Part shown: positions 8,901 to 52,824 of the stretch, in pieces
Position numbering within the stretch: the first letter of the stretch is position 1
How the letters are laid out: the number at the start of each line of letters is the position of its first letter
Assembly: GCA_025936825.1 (NCBI GenBank)
Contig: JAICSO010000001.1
Location: forward strand, 992,001-1,056,000
Source: Terriglobales bacterium
GTDB lineage: Bacteria > Acidobacteriota > Terriglobia > Terriglobales > Acidobacteriaceae
Length of the DNA stretch: 64,000 bases
Direction of reading: 5' to 3'
Notes under the pieces: generated by a model
The model's database searches: none
Seen by the model: only the letters and a program-made list of their open reading frames with translations
Told to the model about the DNA's origin: nothing
Translations under genes and position numbers: made by a program

Positions 8901-9719
8901 GTGCCCAATTCGGTGAAGCCTGGGCGTCAGCCATCGCTCTTCATCCCGCACGGCGGAGGGCCATGTTTTTTCATGAAATGGACCATGGGTCCCCCGGACA
9001 CGTGGAACAAAACGCGCGCCTTTCTCGAAAGTATCCCCGCGTCGCTGCCGGAGAAGCCGCAAGCATTGCTCGTCATCAGCGGACATTGGGAAGAGAATGT
9101 CCCCACCGTCGGCGCCGCAAAGTCGCCGGAACTCATTTATGACTACTCCGGCTTTCCCTCGGAAACTTACCAGCTGACCTGGCCTGCGCCTGGTTCCCCC
9201 GAACTGGCCGGCAAGGTGCAATCTCTCCTTCAGGAAGCCGGCTTGGGGTCCGCATCGAACGATACGCGCGGTTATGACCACGGTGTATTCATCCCGCTGA
9301 AGGTAGCGTTTCCGGAAGCAGATATCCCTGTCGTGACCCTTTCGCTGGCCAGTTCACTCGATCCGGCCTTGCATTTATCAGTTGGCCGTGCGCTCACCCC
9401 TTTGCGCGAGCAAGGTGTACTGACAATTGGAAGCGGAATGAGCTTTCATAATTTGCGTGCCTTGTTCACAGGAGGTGCGCTAGACCGCTCACGAGAGTTC
9501 GATCGCTGGCTGACCGAAACCATTGAGAGCCCGGTCGCGCAGCGCGATGTCCGGCTCAAGGAATGGAAGACTGCTCCATTCGCAAGCTTCGCTCACCCGC
9601 GGGAGGAGCACTTGATTCCACTAATGGTGGCAGCTGGTGCAGGCGGCGACACCCAAGGCAAGCGGGTGTTTCAAGATGATCCGATGGACGCTGTGATCTC
9701 AGGTTACCGGTGGGATTGA
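8901..9719 (+). CDS. DODA-type extradiol aromatic ring-opening dioxygenase
   Basis: A 272-residue member of the 4,5-DOPA/LigB-like dioxygenase family (YgiD type), non-haem iron or zinc enzymes that cleave catecholic rings. Metal and active-site motifs are all present: LFIPHGGGPCFFM near the N-terminus, LLVISGHWEE, YDHGVFIPL, and SGMSFHN with the C-terminal AHPREEHLIPL. The start is the GTG at 8901, preceded by a strong AGGAGGAG site. It is inserted in opposite orientation between glyQ and glyS and has no catabolic partner nearby, so the true substrate is open. Confidence 0.93.
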   Translation: MPNSVKPGRQPSLFIPHGGGPCFFMKWTMGPPDTWNKTRAFLESIPASLPEKPQALLVISGHWEENVPTVGAAKSPELIYDYSGFPSETYQLTWPAPGSPELAGKVQSLLQEAGLGSASNDTRGYDHGVFIPLKVAFPEADIPVVTLSLASSLDPALHLSVGRALTPLREQGVLTIGSGMSFHNLRALFTGGALDRSREFDRWLTETIESPVAQRDVRLKEWKTAPFASFAHPREEHLIPLMVAAGAGGDTQGKRVFQDDPMDAVISGYRWD

Positions 9720-10958: not shown

Positions 10959-11702
10959 TTAAGCCGATAGCTTCTCCAGCATTGCCCGCGTGACCAGCTT
11001 CTTCTCAATGTGGCGTTCTAGCGTCTGCAAAAGGAGCTTACGGAGGTCTGAAAGGGATTTCGCTACGGCATTGGCTGGCTGCATCGCGGAGAGCGGGACT
11101 CTGAGCATCTGACCGGCGAGCATGCGCGACTCCGGCGAAAGCTCGGAAGATGCCAGCCTCTTGTCGTCGGGGCACGTCAGCCCGTCAGCCAAAGCATGGA
11201 AAAAGGCCCGGCTACCGTTCAAGGACCGTCCGCACGAGATGCATTCAGACAAATCCGGCAGGTAGCCCATCAGGCGCGCCATCCACAGCTGAAAATAGGT
11301 GATCGGCAACCAAATGTCATCGCCGCGAAGTCGCTTGATTACGGTGACTGCCAGCCGAAATACGGCGTCACTGGCCTCGCGATCGGGAAGCAGTTCGTCG
11401 AGCAATTCCGCCACGTGTCCGAGTGCTACCACTCGCGGATAGCTGACTTCAGACGTAAGGGGCGAGTCGAGCACTTCGCAGGCATCCAGCCGCGACAGTT
11501 CTTGACGCTCGCGATCCTCCCATGTGAGTTTTACGTAGGTAAGTGGCTCAAGTGCTCCGCCGAAACGACGCCGCGATTTTTTCGCTGCCCGAGCAGCACC
11601 ACGAATTTTGCCCTCGGTACGTGTGAACAGCGTTACCAGCAGATCGGATTCGCGGAACGGGTACGTGCGCAACACGATCGCTTCCGATTCTTTGAGAGGC
11701 AT
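10959..11702 (-). CDS. recO: DNA repair protein RecO
   Basis: With the ATG at 11702 the product has 247 residues, the normal size for RecO, the single-strand-annealing and RecF-pathway mediator. The N-terminal OB fold is seen as ESEAIVLRTYPFRESDLLV and LFTRTEGKIRGAARAAKKS. The C-terminal helical domain contains a CISCG pair and a later Cys in LTCPDDKR, remnants of the zinc finger found in many RecO proteins. The frame stays open for 41 further codons upstream, but that segment (rich in Arg, Pro and Ser) does not resemble RecO, so I reject the longer start. It lies between pyrG and glyQ on the same strand. Confidence 0.93.
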   Translation of the reverse strand: MPLKESEAIVLRTYPFRESDLLVTLFTRTEGKIRGAARAAKKSRRRFGGALEPLTYVKLTWEDRERQELSRLDACEVLDSPLTSEVSYPRVVALGHVAELLDELLPDREASDAVFRLAVTVIKRLRGDDIWLPITYFQLWMARLMGYLPDLSECISCGRSLNGSRAFFHALADGLTCPDDKRLASSELSPESRMLAGQMLRVPLSAMQPANAVAKSLSDLRKLLLQTLERHIEKKLVTRAMLEKLSA

Positions 11703-11835
11703 GGGAGGTGCTGGAGGTGATTGTAGAAGAAAGCCTCGGCGGTCGTTGGCGGTTGGCTGTGCGCGTCTGCCGCTGTCTTGGAGGGACAGTGTCGGCGGCG
11801 CTCGCCGCGCTTGTTGACAGAGCATTAATAGCGAT

Positions 11836-11972
11836 GTGATTCCGAGAAGCGCAGCGACGAGGAACCGTTCGACTTTGCTCAGAGCAGGCCCTGCTGTTCG
11901 TCAGCAGCACCGGAGGAGCATGGGAGAAGCAGGTTCCTCGTCGTTCCGCTGCACTTCACTCCTCGGAATGAC
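11836..11972. repeat. Large imperfect inverted repeat between recO and pyrG
   Basis: The left arm (11836-11867, beginning GTGATTCCGAG and ending CGACGAGGAACC) and the right arm (11930-11972, containing GGTTCCTCGTCG and CCTCGGAATGACA) are inverted copies with a small internal indel, around a spacer of about 60 bases that itself folds. The 376 bases between the recO and pyrG genes hold this element and the heptad array below, and no gene. Confidence 0.65.
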
Positions 11973-12034
11973 ATTCGGATAATGCAGTTGGTGGTCGACA
12001 GTTGCTTGCGTGGCATTAGCCTCACAGGCAACAG

Positions 12035-12068
12035 CCTAAAGCCAAGACCTAAAGCCTGAAACGTGAAA
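12035..12068. repeat. Heptanucleotide array at the 3' end of pyrG
   Basis: Degenerate 7-base units of the CCTGAAA type (CCTAAAG, CCTGAAA, CGTGAAA) with one shortened spacer, ending 10 bases from the pyrG stop codon. The same unit is found at 28722-28756. Confidence 0.45.
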
Positions 12069-12078
12069 CTTTGAAACC

Positions 12079-13764
<1,686 letters not shown>

Positions 13765-36091: not shown

Positions 36092-36138
36092 GTGGGGACA
36101 GCCGCCCTCGGTGTCCTGGTCGAGCGAAGCTCGACGGC
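36092..36138 (+). repeat. 47-base 3'-flank repeat, copy 2
   Basis: It begins 2 bases after the aldolase stop codon: GTGGGGAC, a variable 17-base middle, then the stem GTCGAGC-GAA-GCTCGAC plus GGC. It has the same length and gene-relative orientation as the copy after ppdK (3591-3637). Confidence 0.6.
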
Positions 36139-47801: not shown

Positions 47802-48854
47802 CTACTCATGCGGGTGCGGTTGGACTTCCAGCGGCTGGCGCCAGTCCTGGGCCGAAGCGATTCCCGCGCGCAACCATGCAATTCTAGTCAGCAACGATCC
47901 GGCCACTGCCGAAGCCCCCGCCCAGCGCCGCAGTGATGACCCACGTTCCCGTCCAGCGAACATACTTGCGAGACGCAGTGCGGTCGGAATTGGACCTGAG
48001 AGCGCACCTCCGACTCGCGTTATCGCACCGCTGGTTCCATGCTTCAGAGGATCCAGATGCGTGTGAGTTCGCCCCTCGATCCGAATTCCTTCCCAAACTT
48101 CAAACAGCGCGGCCCCGAGCCCCAGTGTCTGAAGGGCTCGGTTTTTCGAATGCCCCATCAGTTCGAGCATCCCGACTGCGGCGCTGAGTCCTGAGGCTGC
48201 AAAGTGCAACGGAAGATCGCCGACGTTCTGGTTCCACACCGGAATTGCGGTTGCGCCAATCAGCACGCCTGTATAGGTTGCAAGTCCCAGGCCCAAAGGG
48301 ATGGCAGCAGCTTCTGCGGCGTTTTCAACGACCGCCATTGGAAAAGACGGACCGTAGCGCTCGAGCATCAGGCCAGCAAACGTGGCTGCGGAAACCGCGC
48401 TGCCAAATCCAAGTAACGTCCACGCTCCAATCGACATGGGGCTTTGCGGCTTGAACACGCGCATCATTCCCAGAAATCGTTGCGGTTTCCCGAGATCCGC
48501 GATCAGCAACGCGGGCGAAATCACTGCGCCAGCAGCGGCGATGTATCGGGCGTCGCGGACGAGCTTGCGATCAGCGCCGACATAATGTCCAATCGCACTG
48601 ACCACCGCTGCCGCACCCGCAGCGCCTCCCACGAAGAAATAGAGAGGGATCTGGTGTGTCCATTGCGGCGGCTTCAGCAGCGGAATCCCGTAGTACCCGG
48701 TTTCCGGTGATGCCTTTGGAAACGGTGCGCCTTCCGGACGGATGCCGCGAACCTTCACTTTTCCGCGCGACTCAGCTTCGCGCCGGAGAGCCACCAACCG
48801 CAGTTCCCGCTCTTGAGCTGGTTCTTCGGGTAGATGCATGGGTTCGTTGCTCAT
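47802..48854 (-). CDS. NrfD-type membrane subunit of formate dehydrogenase
   Basis: A 350-residue integral membrane protein of the NrfD/PsrC family, the quinone-interacting subunit of several molybdopterin complexes. TGYYGIPLLKPPQWTHQIPLYFFVGGAAGAAA is the family start, followed by about nine helices, including LIADLGKPQRFLGMMRVFKPQSPMS, a conserved NrfD loop. The first 50 residues are a charged cytoplasmic extension. The ATG at 48854 overlaps the stop codon of the iron-sulfur subunit (ATGA). It replaces the cytochrome b (FdnI) subunit of the E. coli Fdh-N complex. Confidence 0.93.
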   Translation of the reverse strand: MSNEPMHLPEEPAQERELRLVALRREAESRGKVKVRGIRPEGAPFPKASPETGYYGIPLLKPPQWTHQIPLYFFVGGAAGAAAVVSAIGHYVGADRKLVRDARYIAAAGAVISPALLIADLGKPQRFLGMMRVFKPQSPMSIGAWTLLGFGSAVSAATFAGLMLERYGPSFPMAVVENAAEAAAIPLGLGLATYTGVLIGATAIPVWNQNVGDLPLHFAASGLSAAVGMLELMGHSKNRALQTLGLGAALFEVWEGIRIEGRTHTHLDPLKHGTSGAITRVGGALSGPIPTALRLASMFAGRERGSSLRRWAGASAVAGSLLTRIAWLRAGIASAQDWRQPLEVQPHPHE

Positions 48855-49642
48855 CGCCCATCCCTCGTGCCGTCGGTTAAGAATGCCAGCAGGGTTCCGC
48901 CAAGAAGAAGGCCCGCCGCTACGGCTGCCGATGCCCAACCTTTCTTCAGGTAGATCGTGGGCACTTCAGGGTTTGGCGGCAAATTATAAGTCCGCGGGTC
49001 ACCTCGGAGAATGAACATCGCGTGCGTACCCTGCACGCTGGTGTGGGCCGGATCATAAAACGCCACATCGTTCATGCCGCGTTCCTGCAACACCTGCAGG
49101 CGTTCCTGCGCCTCAGCCCTGAGCTGATTGATCTCCCCAAACTTGATTGACTCGGTCGGACATGCCTTCGCACACGCCGGCTCCAGGCCGATCTTCTGAC
49201 GGTCGTAGCAGAAGGTGCACTTGAAAGCGCGCCCATCCTCTTTATTCTTCGCCACTACTCCGAAAGGGCATGCGACCACGCAATAGGCGCAGCCGTTACA
49301 GACATCCGGCTGAACAAAAACGCCGCCGAACTCAGTGCGCACGATCGCGCCCGTGGGACAGGCCTTAAGACATCCTGCGACCTCGCAGTGTTTGCAGACG
49401 TCGGACGAGAACACCCAGGATGCCTGCTCGCCTGCGTTGCCGCCAATGCCAGGAGTGGGTGGCTCCTCAACGAATTTCACGTGACGCCAGGTGGACGCGC
49501 CCACGGCGCCGGTATTGTCGTACGAATACCCGCTCCATTCGAAACCGTCTTCTTCGACGTGGTTCCACTCTTTGCACGCGACTTCGCAGGCTTTACAGCC
49601 GATGCATAACGTCGAATCTGTGAGAAATGCAGTGGTGCTCAT
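48851..49642 (-). CDS. Four-cluster ferredoxin subunit of formate dehydrogenase
   Basis: A 263-residue HybA/FdnH-type electron-transfer subunit. Cysteine blocks for four [4Fe-4S] clusters are visible: CIGCKACEVACKEWN, CKHCEVAGCLKACPTG, CNGCAYCVVACPFG and CTFCYDRQ...CAKACPTES. A C-terminal transmembrane helix (AAVAAGLLLGGTLLAFL) anchors it to the membrane. It links the catalytic subunit to the NrfD-type protein. Its ATG overlaps the stop codon of the catalytic subunit gene (ATGA), and its own stop overlaps the next start, so the three form one operon. Confidence 0.95.
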   Translation of the reverse strand: MSTTAFLTDSTLCIGCKACEVACKEWNHVEEDGFEWSGYSYDNTGAVGASTWRHVKFVEEPPTPGIGGNAGEQASWVFSSDVCKHCEVAGCLKACPTGAIVRTEFGGVFVQPDVCNGCAYCVVACPFGVVAKNKEDGRAFKCTFCYDRQKIGLEPACAKACPTESIKFGEINQLRAEAQERLQVLQERGMNDVAFYDPAHTSVQGTHAMFILRGDPRTYNLPPNPEVPTIYLKKGWASAAVAAGLLLGGTLLAFLTDGTRDGR

Positions 49643-52600
49643 GCCAGACGCTCCGCGACAAGTGGACTCTCAATCGCTTTTTTCCCTCGTGGCCTGCGGC
49701 CCGGCTTTATGTCACACACCAAAGCCTTGGTTTCCATGATCCGCACGTTCGGCTCCTCGCTGATGACTAACAGATCATTGACCACATCACCAGTGACTTG
49801 ACCTTTGTAACCCCAGTGATACGGCAGTCCGACCTGATGAACGGTTCGGCCATCGATCATCAGCGGTCTTATGCGCGGTGTGACCATGACGCGGGCCTCA
49901 ACGATCCCGCGCGGTGTGGTAATGGTCGCATAATCGCCGTGCTTCAAACCGAGTTCAGCGGCGAGTTCCGGGGAAACTTCCGTGAACAGCTCCGGTTGCA
50001 GTTCCGCGAGGTGGGACAACGTCCGCGTCATTCCGCCTGCTGTGTGGTGTTCGGTCAAGCGATACGTGGAAAGTACATATGGGTACCGTGGATCGCCCGG
50101 CGAATTCGCGTAAGGATTGTCGGGACGCGCTTTTTTCTGAGCCGCAGGATTGTCCTGCTGGTCGTAAAGTGGATTCTTGATCAGCGATTCCAGCGGTTCG
50201 TAATGGGTCGGCAGCGGGCCATCTTTCAGTCCGCTTGCGACCCAGATCCAGCCCACGCCGTCGGGATGCAAGGTGAACGGCCGTGCACCGCCGAGAGCTT
50301 TCGTGCCATGGCCTTCGTGGACATCCGCGGGCTTATCCGGCGGAATTGTCTTCTCATAATCGGCGTTATCAAGTCCCGTCCATTCCTTTTTTTCTTTATC
50401 CCACCAGACGAGTTTCTTGCGTTCACTCCAAGGGGTTCCGTCCGGCTTCGCCGAAGCACGGTTGTAAATGATGCGGCAGTCGTTGGGCCAGGCAAATCCC
50501 CAGCCGTGGCCAAGCAGATCTTTTGGATTGCGTTCATTCGCGCGGTTGTATCCCTCTTCGGGGTAAACGCCGCAATAAATCCACGCTCCACAGGCCGTGG
50601 AACCATCCGCCTTCAGGTCCTTTATATGGGCAAGTTGCTTTCGATCCGCGGCCGTGTACCCGTTGATCTCCTTGAGAACCTCCTCGACCTTTGGCTCTGC
50701 CGTCGGACCTTGCGCTGTGTAATTCCACGTCAGCGCGCGAAGGCCGTCATTTCGCGGTTGTGAATCCTGCTCGGCTTTTTCTTTTACCCTGCGGCCAAGG
50801 TGATACATGAACCAGGTCTCGCTGCGCGCATCGCCCGGAGGTTCGACCGCTTTGTTGCGGTACTGCAGCAAGCGCTGCGTATTAGTGAAGGTCCCTTCCT
50901 TTTCCGCTGTACCTGCAGCGGGGAAGAGGAAAACTTCCGTCCCAATCGTGTCAGGCGAGAGTTCGCCGCGCTGCACTTCTGGGGATGCGTACCAGAACGA
51001 TGCCGTCTCGGTCTCGACCATGTCTCGTACGACGAGCCATTTCAGTTTCGATAATGCCTTGCGCTCTAGTCGCCCATTCGACGCGCCCACCGCCGGATTC
51101 TGCCCCATGACGAACAGGCCTTCGAGCTTGCCGTCCGCCATGTCGAGCCAATAACCGAAATGGGAGTGATCACCAGTCACGCGTGGAAGCCAATCGAATC
51201 CCCAGTTGTTGGACTTCGTCGCGGCCTCGCCGTAGTACGCCTTCATCAGGCTGACGAAATACTTCTCAAACCCCGACCACAGGCCCGTGCGAGCGCTGTG
51301 CTTTTTGACGTAGTCTTTGAATTTCTTGGAGTCTGCCTCAAAGAACGGCATCGGCAGATAACCGGGCAGAATGTCGTAGAGCGTAGGAATGTCGGTCGAG
51401 CCCTGAATGGATGCGTGTCCGCGCAAAGCCAGAATGCCACCACCGGGACGTCCTATGTTTCCGAGCAGCAGCTGCAGAATGGCCGCGGATCGAATGATCT
51501 GCACGCCTTTCGAATGCTGCGTCCAGCCAACGGCATAGCAAATGGCACCAGTTTTTTCCGGACCCGACGCTGAGGTGAACGCATCGGCCGCCTTGTAGAA
51601 CACGTCTTGCGGAACGCCGCAGAAACGCTCGACCATCTCCGGCGTGTAGCGCGAGAAGTGACGCTTCAAAACCTGGAACACGCACCGAGGATGCTGCAAC
51701 GTTCGGTCCTCTTCATATTTGCCGGCATCCTGTGCTTCGCCGCCGCGATCTTTGCCGTGACCGCCCCCAGCCGCCGCATGCCCAGGCTTGCTCTTCCCGG
51801 CATCTGCCTTGACGGGGGCGCCTTCGTACAGCCAGCTCTCCGGGTCATACTTCTTCTTTTCTGTGTCCCATCCCGAGAACAACCCGTCGAGATCCTCTGT
51901 ATCTCGAAAGTCTTCGCGCAAGATCATGGGCGCGTTGGTGTAGTTCACTACGTAGTCGCGAAATTCTTTGTTGTTCTCGAGAACGTAGTGAATGAGCGCG
52001 CCAACAAAGAGGATGTCGCTTCCCGCACGCAGGGGCACCCAGATATCTGCCATTGCGGACGTGCGAGTGAACCGGGGATCGACGTGGATGACCTTTGCGC
52101 CTTTTTCGCGAGCCTCCACCACCCACTGGAATCCAACCGGATGATTCTCCGCCATCGACGATCCCATGATCAGGATCGCGTCTGAGTTGCTCAGGTCCTG
52201 CTGCGCGGTGGTGGCACCGCCGCGTCCGAACGAGGTGCCCAGACCGGGCACCGTAGAGCTATGTCATATACGGGCCTGGTTGGAGATGCACACCATGCCC
52301 AGGCCAGCGGCGAACAGCTTTTTAATAAGGTAGTTCTCTTCGTTGTCGAGGGTGGCGCCGCCGAGGTGCGCGATCGCGGTGGTCTGCATGACCACATCGC
52401 CGTCCTTCTTCTCCTGGAAAGTCCGGTCGCGGGTTTCCCAAAGCCGGTCGGCGACCATATCCATCGCGGTCTCAAGTTCGATCTCCTCCCATTCGCGCGA
52501 ATAAGGACGGCGGTACTTCACCTTCTTCAGCCGCCCTGGATGCGTATGCAACTCGAAAGTGTCCGCGCCTTTGGGGCAGAGATGGCCGCGTGAGATCGGC

Positions 52601-52824
52601 GACTGCGGGTCTCCCTCGATGGAAATCAGCTTGCCCTTCTTGTGATAGACAAGCTGCCCGCAACCCACCCCGCAATAAGGGCAGATGGAACGCGCAACTT
52701 CAGCGCCGTGAGTCTTGGGAACCAGCCCGCGGGTTCGCTCGCTCATCGCTTCTGGGCCAGTGCCATCGGAGCCGGTCTGGATTTGACGGATGACCGGCCA
52801 TCGGGAGAGAAGATCTTTGATCAC
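49639..52824 (-). CDS. fdhA: Selenocysteine-containing formate dehydrogenase catalytic subunit
   Basis: One 1061-residue protein if the in-frame TGA at 52264-52266 is read as selenocysteine (residue 187). The context SNQARI-U-HSSTVPGLGTSFGRG aligns with the E. coli FdnG/FdoG site. Before it are the [4Fe-4S] ligands C48, C51, C55 and C83; after it come GSSMAENHPVGFQWVVEA and other molybdopterin-binding blocks, through RLTEHHTAGGMTRTL and VGLPYHWGYKG. A SECIS hairpin directly follows the TGA. The GTG at 52824 gives an N-terminus without the twin-arginine signal of FdnG. A Gly/Ala/Lys-rich insert of about 35 residues lies before HPRCVFQVL. The subunit oxidises formate or reduces CO2, with electrons passing to the Fe-S and NrfD subunits. 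Confidence 0.94.
52234..52252 (-). promoter_or_regulatory. Bacterial SECIS hairpin for UGA-187
   Basis: Read on the minus strand the bases are GGTGCCC-GGTCT-GGGCACC: a perfect 7-bp stem with the SelB-binding apical loop GGUCU. It begins 11 bases after the TGA, the same spacing I recall for E. coli fdhF. Loop sequence and distance are what selenocysteine insertion requires. Confidence 0.93.

Follow-up and report, generated by a model that had tools for sequence, protein, structure and literature searches.

An in-frame TGA codon followed by a covarying SECIS-like hairpin very probably encodes selenocysteine in an acidobacterial formate dehydrogenase

Does the TGA codon that divides an apparent formate dehydrogenase gene at this locus end one protein, or does it encode selenocysteine (Sec) within a longer one? 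The gene lies on the minus strand of the window, by which we mean the whole stretch of 64,000 nucleotides that was analysed, and coordinates are those of the window unless a contig (C) or a fetched locus (L) is named. As an earlier note on this DNA had stated, simple gene calling yields two open reading frames (ORFs), 52264-52824 and 49639-52251, between which a TGA (52266-52264) stands in frame. The frame 52824-49639 is otherwise intact, with a GTG start at 52824 and a stop codon ending at 49639, and the coding sequence is open on both sides of the TGA. When this codon (52264..52266, minus strand) is read as Sec, the fdhG-like gene (49639..52824, minus strand) encodes a continuous alpha subunit of 1061 aa, estimated at about 117 kDa, in which Sec is residue 187 (U187), and a gene-calling error is corrected, giving one enzyme instead of two fragments. 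The note had also described, at 52234-52266, an in-frame TGA, an 11-nt spacer and a perfect 7-bp stem with the loop GGTCT, and its positions proved exact. From the sequence comparisons described below, we conclude that the TGA very probably encodes Sec.

The identity of the enzyme was established by profile and structure searches. The best model for the fdhG-like protein was NF041513 (formate dehydrogenase; 1606 bits, cut-off 1400), and the protein also exceeded the cut-off of TIGR01553 (formate dehydrogenase-N alpha; 969.2 bits, cut-off 814.2), a curated family. The 'Act' in the name of the best model, formate_DH_Act, presumably refers to Actinobacteria, whereas the window is acidobacterial, judging from its one named relative (L091). 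Molybdopterin, Fe4S4 and dinucleotide-binding domains were found in the protein, which belongs to the same catalytic subunit family as E. coli FdnG (PDB 1kqf) and as the Sec-containing formate dehydrogenase alpha chains 8cm4, 6sdr and others in the PDB. In the match to E. coli FDH-N (1kqf_A, E 6e-213), residue 187 is aligned with X, a non-standard residue, in the context '...NQAR?H...'. The codon thus occupies the Sec position of FdnG/FdoG, as had been claimed.

Two genes for putative partner subunits lie downstream on the minus strand. A formate dehydrogenase beta-like 4Fe-4S subunit (48851..49642) overlaps the end of fdhG; it matched PF13247 with 86.7 bits and TIGR01582 with 199.9 bits, the latter below the cut-off of 334.7. 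An NrfD/PsrC-type membrane subunit (47802..48860; PF03916, 63.4 bits, cut-off 25.8) is the probable quinone side of the complex. In being NrfD-like, this membrane partner differs from that of E. coli, which is the cytochrome b FdnI. The enzyme and these two subunits would probably transfer electrons from formate to quinones of the pool. E. coli FdnG carries a twin-arginine (Tat) export signal, which we took as defining only the exported form and not the catalytic subunit family. Residues 1-46 of the window protein contain no twin arginine, which suggests that this formate dehydrogenase is likely to be a non-exported enzyme. A more distant homologue, L149, has SRRDLF near the protein start; a narrow Tat motif matched none of 30 rows but would miss even this sequence, and two of the rows, L070 (broken frame) and L091 (a run of N), were uninformative.

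To determine whether relatives have TGA or a cysteine codon at this position, a check that the note had proposed, we surveyed the family in 150 genomes, the window's own among them, scoring the best five or fewer candidates per genome at E 1e-50. A match to FdhG at this threshold or better was found in 67 of the 150 genomes, and 83 matches from 63 of these genomes span the codon (counted by eye). All 83 have TGA, read letter by letter. A TGA-containing formate dehydrogenase is therefore common in the family (83 matches, 63/150 genomes). The same codon was found in L091 ('Acidobacteria bacterium isolate gp1 AA146'), which is 78% identical, bringing the count to 84 of 84 rows; this set left out L089, which begins after the codon. 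Seven loci were fetched as possible Cys forms, their survey matches having begun after the codon. Four of them (L149-L152) reach the codon, and all four have TGA, while the stretches L153-L155 do not hold it. In seven genomes (G010, G022, G024, G053, G099, G113 and G146) a match starts after the codon, and each of these genomes has another, codon-spanning match listed. Overall, TGA was present in 88 of the 88 gene copies read at the codon, the window's own among them, and no Cys form was seen in these copies, as drawn from the best five or fewer candidates per genome.

A second survey covered 396 genomes of the phylum, overlapping the family set, at E 1e-60 and with the best two or fewer candidates per genome. 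Matches were found in 42 of these genomes, and 42 matches from 40 genomes span the codon (counted by eye); each of the 42 contains at least one TGA, most of them not read letter by letter. Because only the best five or two candidates per genome were scored, both surveys may have missed weaker, lower-ranking homologues with Cys.

The sequence that follows the TGA was then considered as a possible SECIS element. The hairpin (52252-52234, minus strand) begins 11 nt after the TGA and consists of GGTGCCC, the loop GGTCT (GGUCU in the RNA) and GGGCACC, a perfect 7-bp stem. We searched both strands of the window for a TGA followed after 8-14 nt by a perfect 7-bp stem that closes a loop of 4-7 nt containing RGTYT, and found two such patterns, compared with a mean of 0.017 in 60 simulated Markov-1 windows. 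When the loop rule was dropped, there were 16 in the window and 4.7 in the simulations. Real DNA exceeds the Markov-1 model anyway, so this rarity is not proof. The second match, a TGA at 9595 (minus strand) followed after 11 nt by a 7-bp stem whose loop contains AGTCT, is antisense to an ordinary ORF (8901-9719); it looks like chance and was rejected as a Sec site. The 55-nt local fold at the fdhG hairpin was not unusually stable relative to shuffles of its composition (z -0.12), and its match to Rfam SECIS_3 was weak (E 0.0077), at 28.1 bits against a gathering cut-off of 63. The SECIS element of E. coli has a bulged U, in contrast to the hairpin of the window, which has none. Since neither rarity nor stability suffices, the proof lies in the conservation of the codon together with the covariation of the stem.

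Covariation was tested in the 46 rows that have the V-P-[GS]-L-G-[TA] context. The bases at the third codon positions of Val and Gly pair with each other in 46 of 46 rows, as compared to a mean of 25.4 in column shuffles, and 0 of 5000 shuffles did as well. The pairs are of several types (GC 29, CG 10, TA 3, AT 2, GT 2), and the pair state changes 13 times on the protein tree. This number is approximate, the tree being a quick one with many weakly supported forks, and the column shuffles ignore relatedness. Because the third positions of Val and Gly are silent in the protein, their pairing points to selection on the RNA, and we regard the hairpin stem as being under such selection, judging from the alignment. 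The outer, seventh pair is optional (paired in 23/46 rows, shuffle mean 13.8), and the innermost C-G pair is broken in a single row of the 46. The 38 rows outside the pairing test were inspected by eye, and 34 of them have a Ser codon at the Val-Gly test site; in these, the third bases of Ser and Gly also co-vary, with TCA/GGA in 28 and TCC/GGG in 6. The loop RGTYT is present in all 84 rows. Thus, the hairpin that the note had called a SECIS is supported as a SECIS-like element with a covarying stem. Its silent compensatory changes provide a clean natural set from a bacterial SECIS stem, useful for calibrating SECIS models.

Bacteria insert Sec by an established pathway that involves SerRS, SelA, SelD and SelB, and the note had reasoned that the organism must have selA, selB, selC and selD. 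Three of the four are in the assembly. The gene for tRNA-Sec (selC), with anticodon UCA, is located at C91:142300-142393 (69 bits, gathering 47), and ARAGORN calls the same tRNA SeC(tca); the Rfam tRNA-Sec model also responds in each of 14 control genomes, with scores above the cut-off in five of them. Two further matches to this model in the own genome, just over the cut-off, are a tRNA-Ser and a tRNA-Leu. The selA gene is at C140:281064-282545 (551.9 bits, cut-off 267.9) and selD at C14:169994-171010 (346.7 bits, cut-off 125). One in-frame TGA is present in selD, in the context AAGUASKLSP (L026, minus strand, start about 10000), at what we take to be the catalytic Cys/Sec position. The frames of selA and selD are open apart from TGA codons.

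The fourth gene, selB, is not in the assembly, as neither TIGR00475 nor a profile built from the SelBs of four congeners detected it. None of the seven matches to TIGR00475 in this genome is selB: two are EF-Tu (one complete, the other truncated at the end of a contig), two are EF-G, and the others are IF-2, LepA and TypA. The congeneric profile likewise brought up only proteins of these five kinds. In the congeners G027 and G126, selB adjoins purL, which is followed by purF (identities checked by model). For purL and purF, too, no match in the window's assembly exceeded the cut-off, and when the selB regions of the two congeners were compared with this assembly by blastn, the matches within the selB-purL-purF block were all short. 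For L094, the stretch beyond the dnaG-like match of the own genome, the search for a selB relict consisted of these same profile and blastn searches. SelB is over the cut-off in 4 of 4 congeners searched and in 86 of the 150 family genomes. It accompanies FdhG, being over the cut-off in 61 of 67 FdhG-bearing genomes vs 25 of the 83 others (by eye; Fisher p 8e-15, taking genomes as independent, without correction for relatedness). The six FdhG genomes without SelB over the cut-off are the own genome (G000), G029, which is 96% complete, and G024, G036, G071 and G073, which are at most 84% complete. Because purL and purF are also missing and all four congeners have selB, it is most likely that the stretch with selB, purL and purF was left unassembled in the own genome, a draft of 141 contigs rated 99.67% complete. 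The gap is invisible to this completeness score. The note had held that absence of the sel genes from a complete genome would refute its reading; it is selB alone that is missing, and from a draft.

We are highly confident of the explanation as a whole, in which Sec, inserted by SelB-dependent decoding, is the catalytic residue (187) of an alpha subunit of a molybdopterin formate dehydrogenase. In the cell, SerRS would charge tRNA-Sec(UCA), SelA with selenophosphate from SelD would form Sec-tRNA-Sec, and this tRNA would be brought to the ribosome by SelB, which would bind the hairpin that lies 11 nt past the UGA in the mRNA. The main point of doubt is the missing selB. If it had been truly lost along with purL and purF, all three of which are absent from the assembly, the full-length enzyme would no longer be made, and fdhG, selA, selC and selD would be relics in early decay. 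However, the frames of fdhG, selA and selD are open apart from TGA, the SECIS stem is perfect and selB is present in each of the congeners searched, and the joint disappearance of two purine-synthesis genes and selB is explained most simply by an assembly gap. A true loss is thus very unlikely. That SelB is truly absent and Sec is nevertheless decoded through tRNA-Sec, SelA, SelD and another delivery factor we consider highly improbable; in that case the hairpin, which lacks the bulged U of the E. coli type, would be read differently.

The failure to find selB would also suit a UGA that is read without SelB-dependent Sec insertion, for instance as Trp or Cys by near-cognate reading. Such a reading leaves unaccounted for the presence of tRNA-Sec, selA and selD, a hairpin that appears to be under selection, and the occurrence of SelB over the cut-off in 61 of the 67 genomes with FdhG, and we give it hardly any credence. 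The two ORFs that come from simple gene calling are what would be expected if the TGA were a true stop, dividing two separate genes or breaking one. But the stop would then coincide with the active-site residue, and relatives, which the note had named as a possible source of evidence for a true stop, keep the TGA in all 88 copies read, in which the protein goes on beyond the codon and a covarying hairpin follows. The probability of a true stop is close to nil.

The note's remark that a Sec system is not widely noted in this phylum was overstated, as selenoproteins of Acidobacteria have been in print since 2006 (PMC1794560). In that survey, three selenoprotein families with four selenoproteins are given for Acidobacteria, and changes from Sec to Cys are reported for the formate dehydrogenase family (PMC1794560). 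A table of 2025 credits Occallatibacter riparius DSM 25168, of the Acidobacteriota, with three selenoprotein genes of known kinds (PMC12013277). What these printed cases (PMC1794560, PMC12013277) share with the present gene is the phylum. Our literature search, incomplete in coverage, found no paper on the FdhG SECIS of this family. The finding of a formate dehydrogenase gene whose Sec codon is followed by a covarying SECIS is correct and well supported, and it is ordinary in kind.

Two other features were observed near the Sec genes. On the locus that holds selD, a long near-perfect hairpin (L026 12602-12685) lies between a PmbA-like ORF (11105-12598) and the next ORF; its Rfam match as a microRNA is below gathering and surely spurious. 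A 94-bp repeat, 82% identical between its copies, is present in frame inside both selA (L027 5489-5582; C140:281490..) and recG (L027 3182-3272; C140:279183..) of the own genome. Folds of the two copies are barely more stable than shuffles (z -1.37 for selA and -1.06 for recG). The Rickettsia palindromic elements are an example of in-frame palindromic repeats, and the selA/recG repeat resembles a repeat of this type. The repeat also occurs at 36092-36133 of the window, and its core of about 44 bp is found at no fewer than 11 further places in the own genome, as well as between purL and purF of the congener G027.
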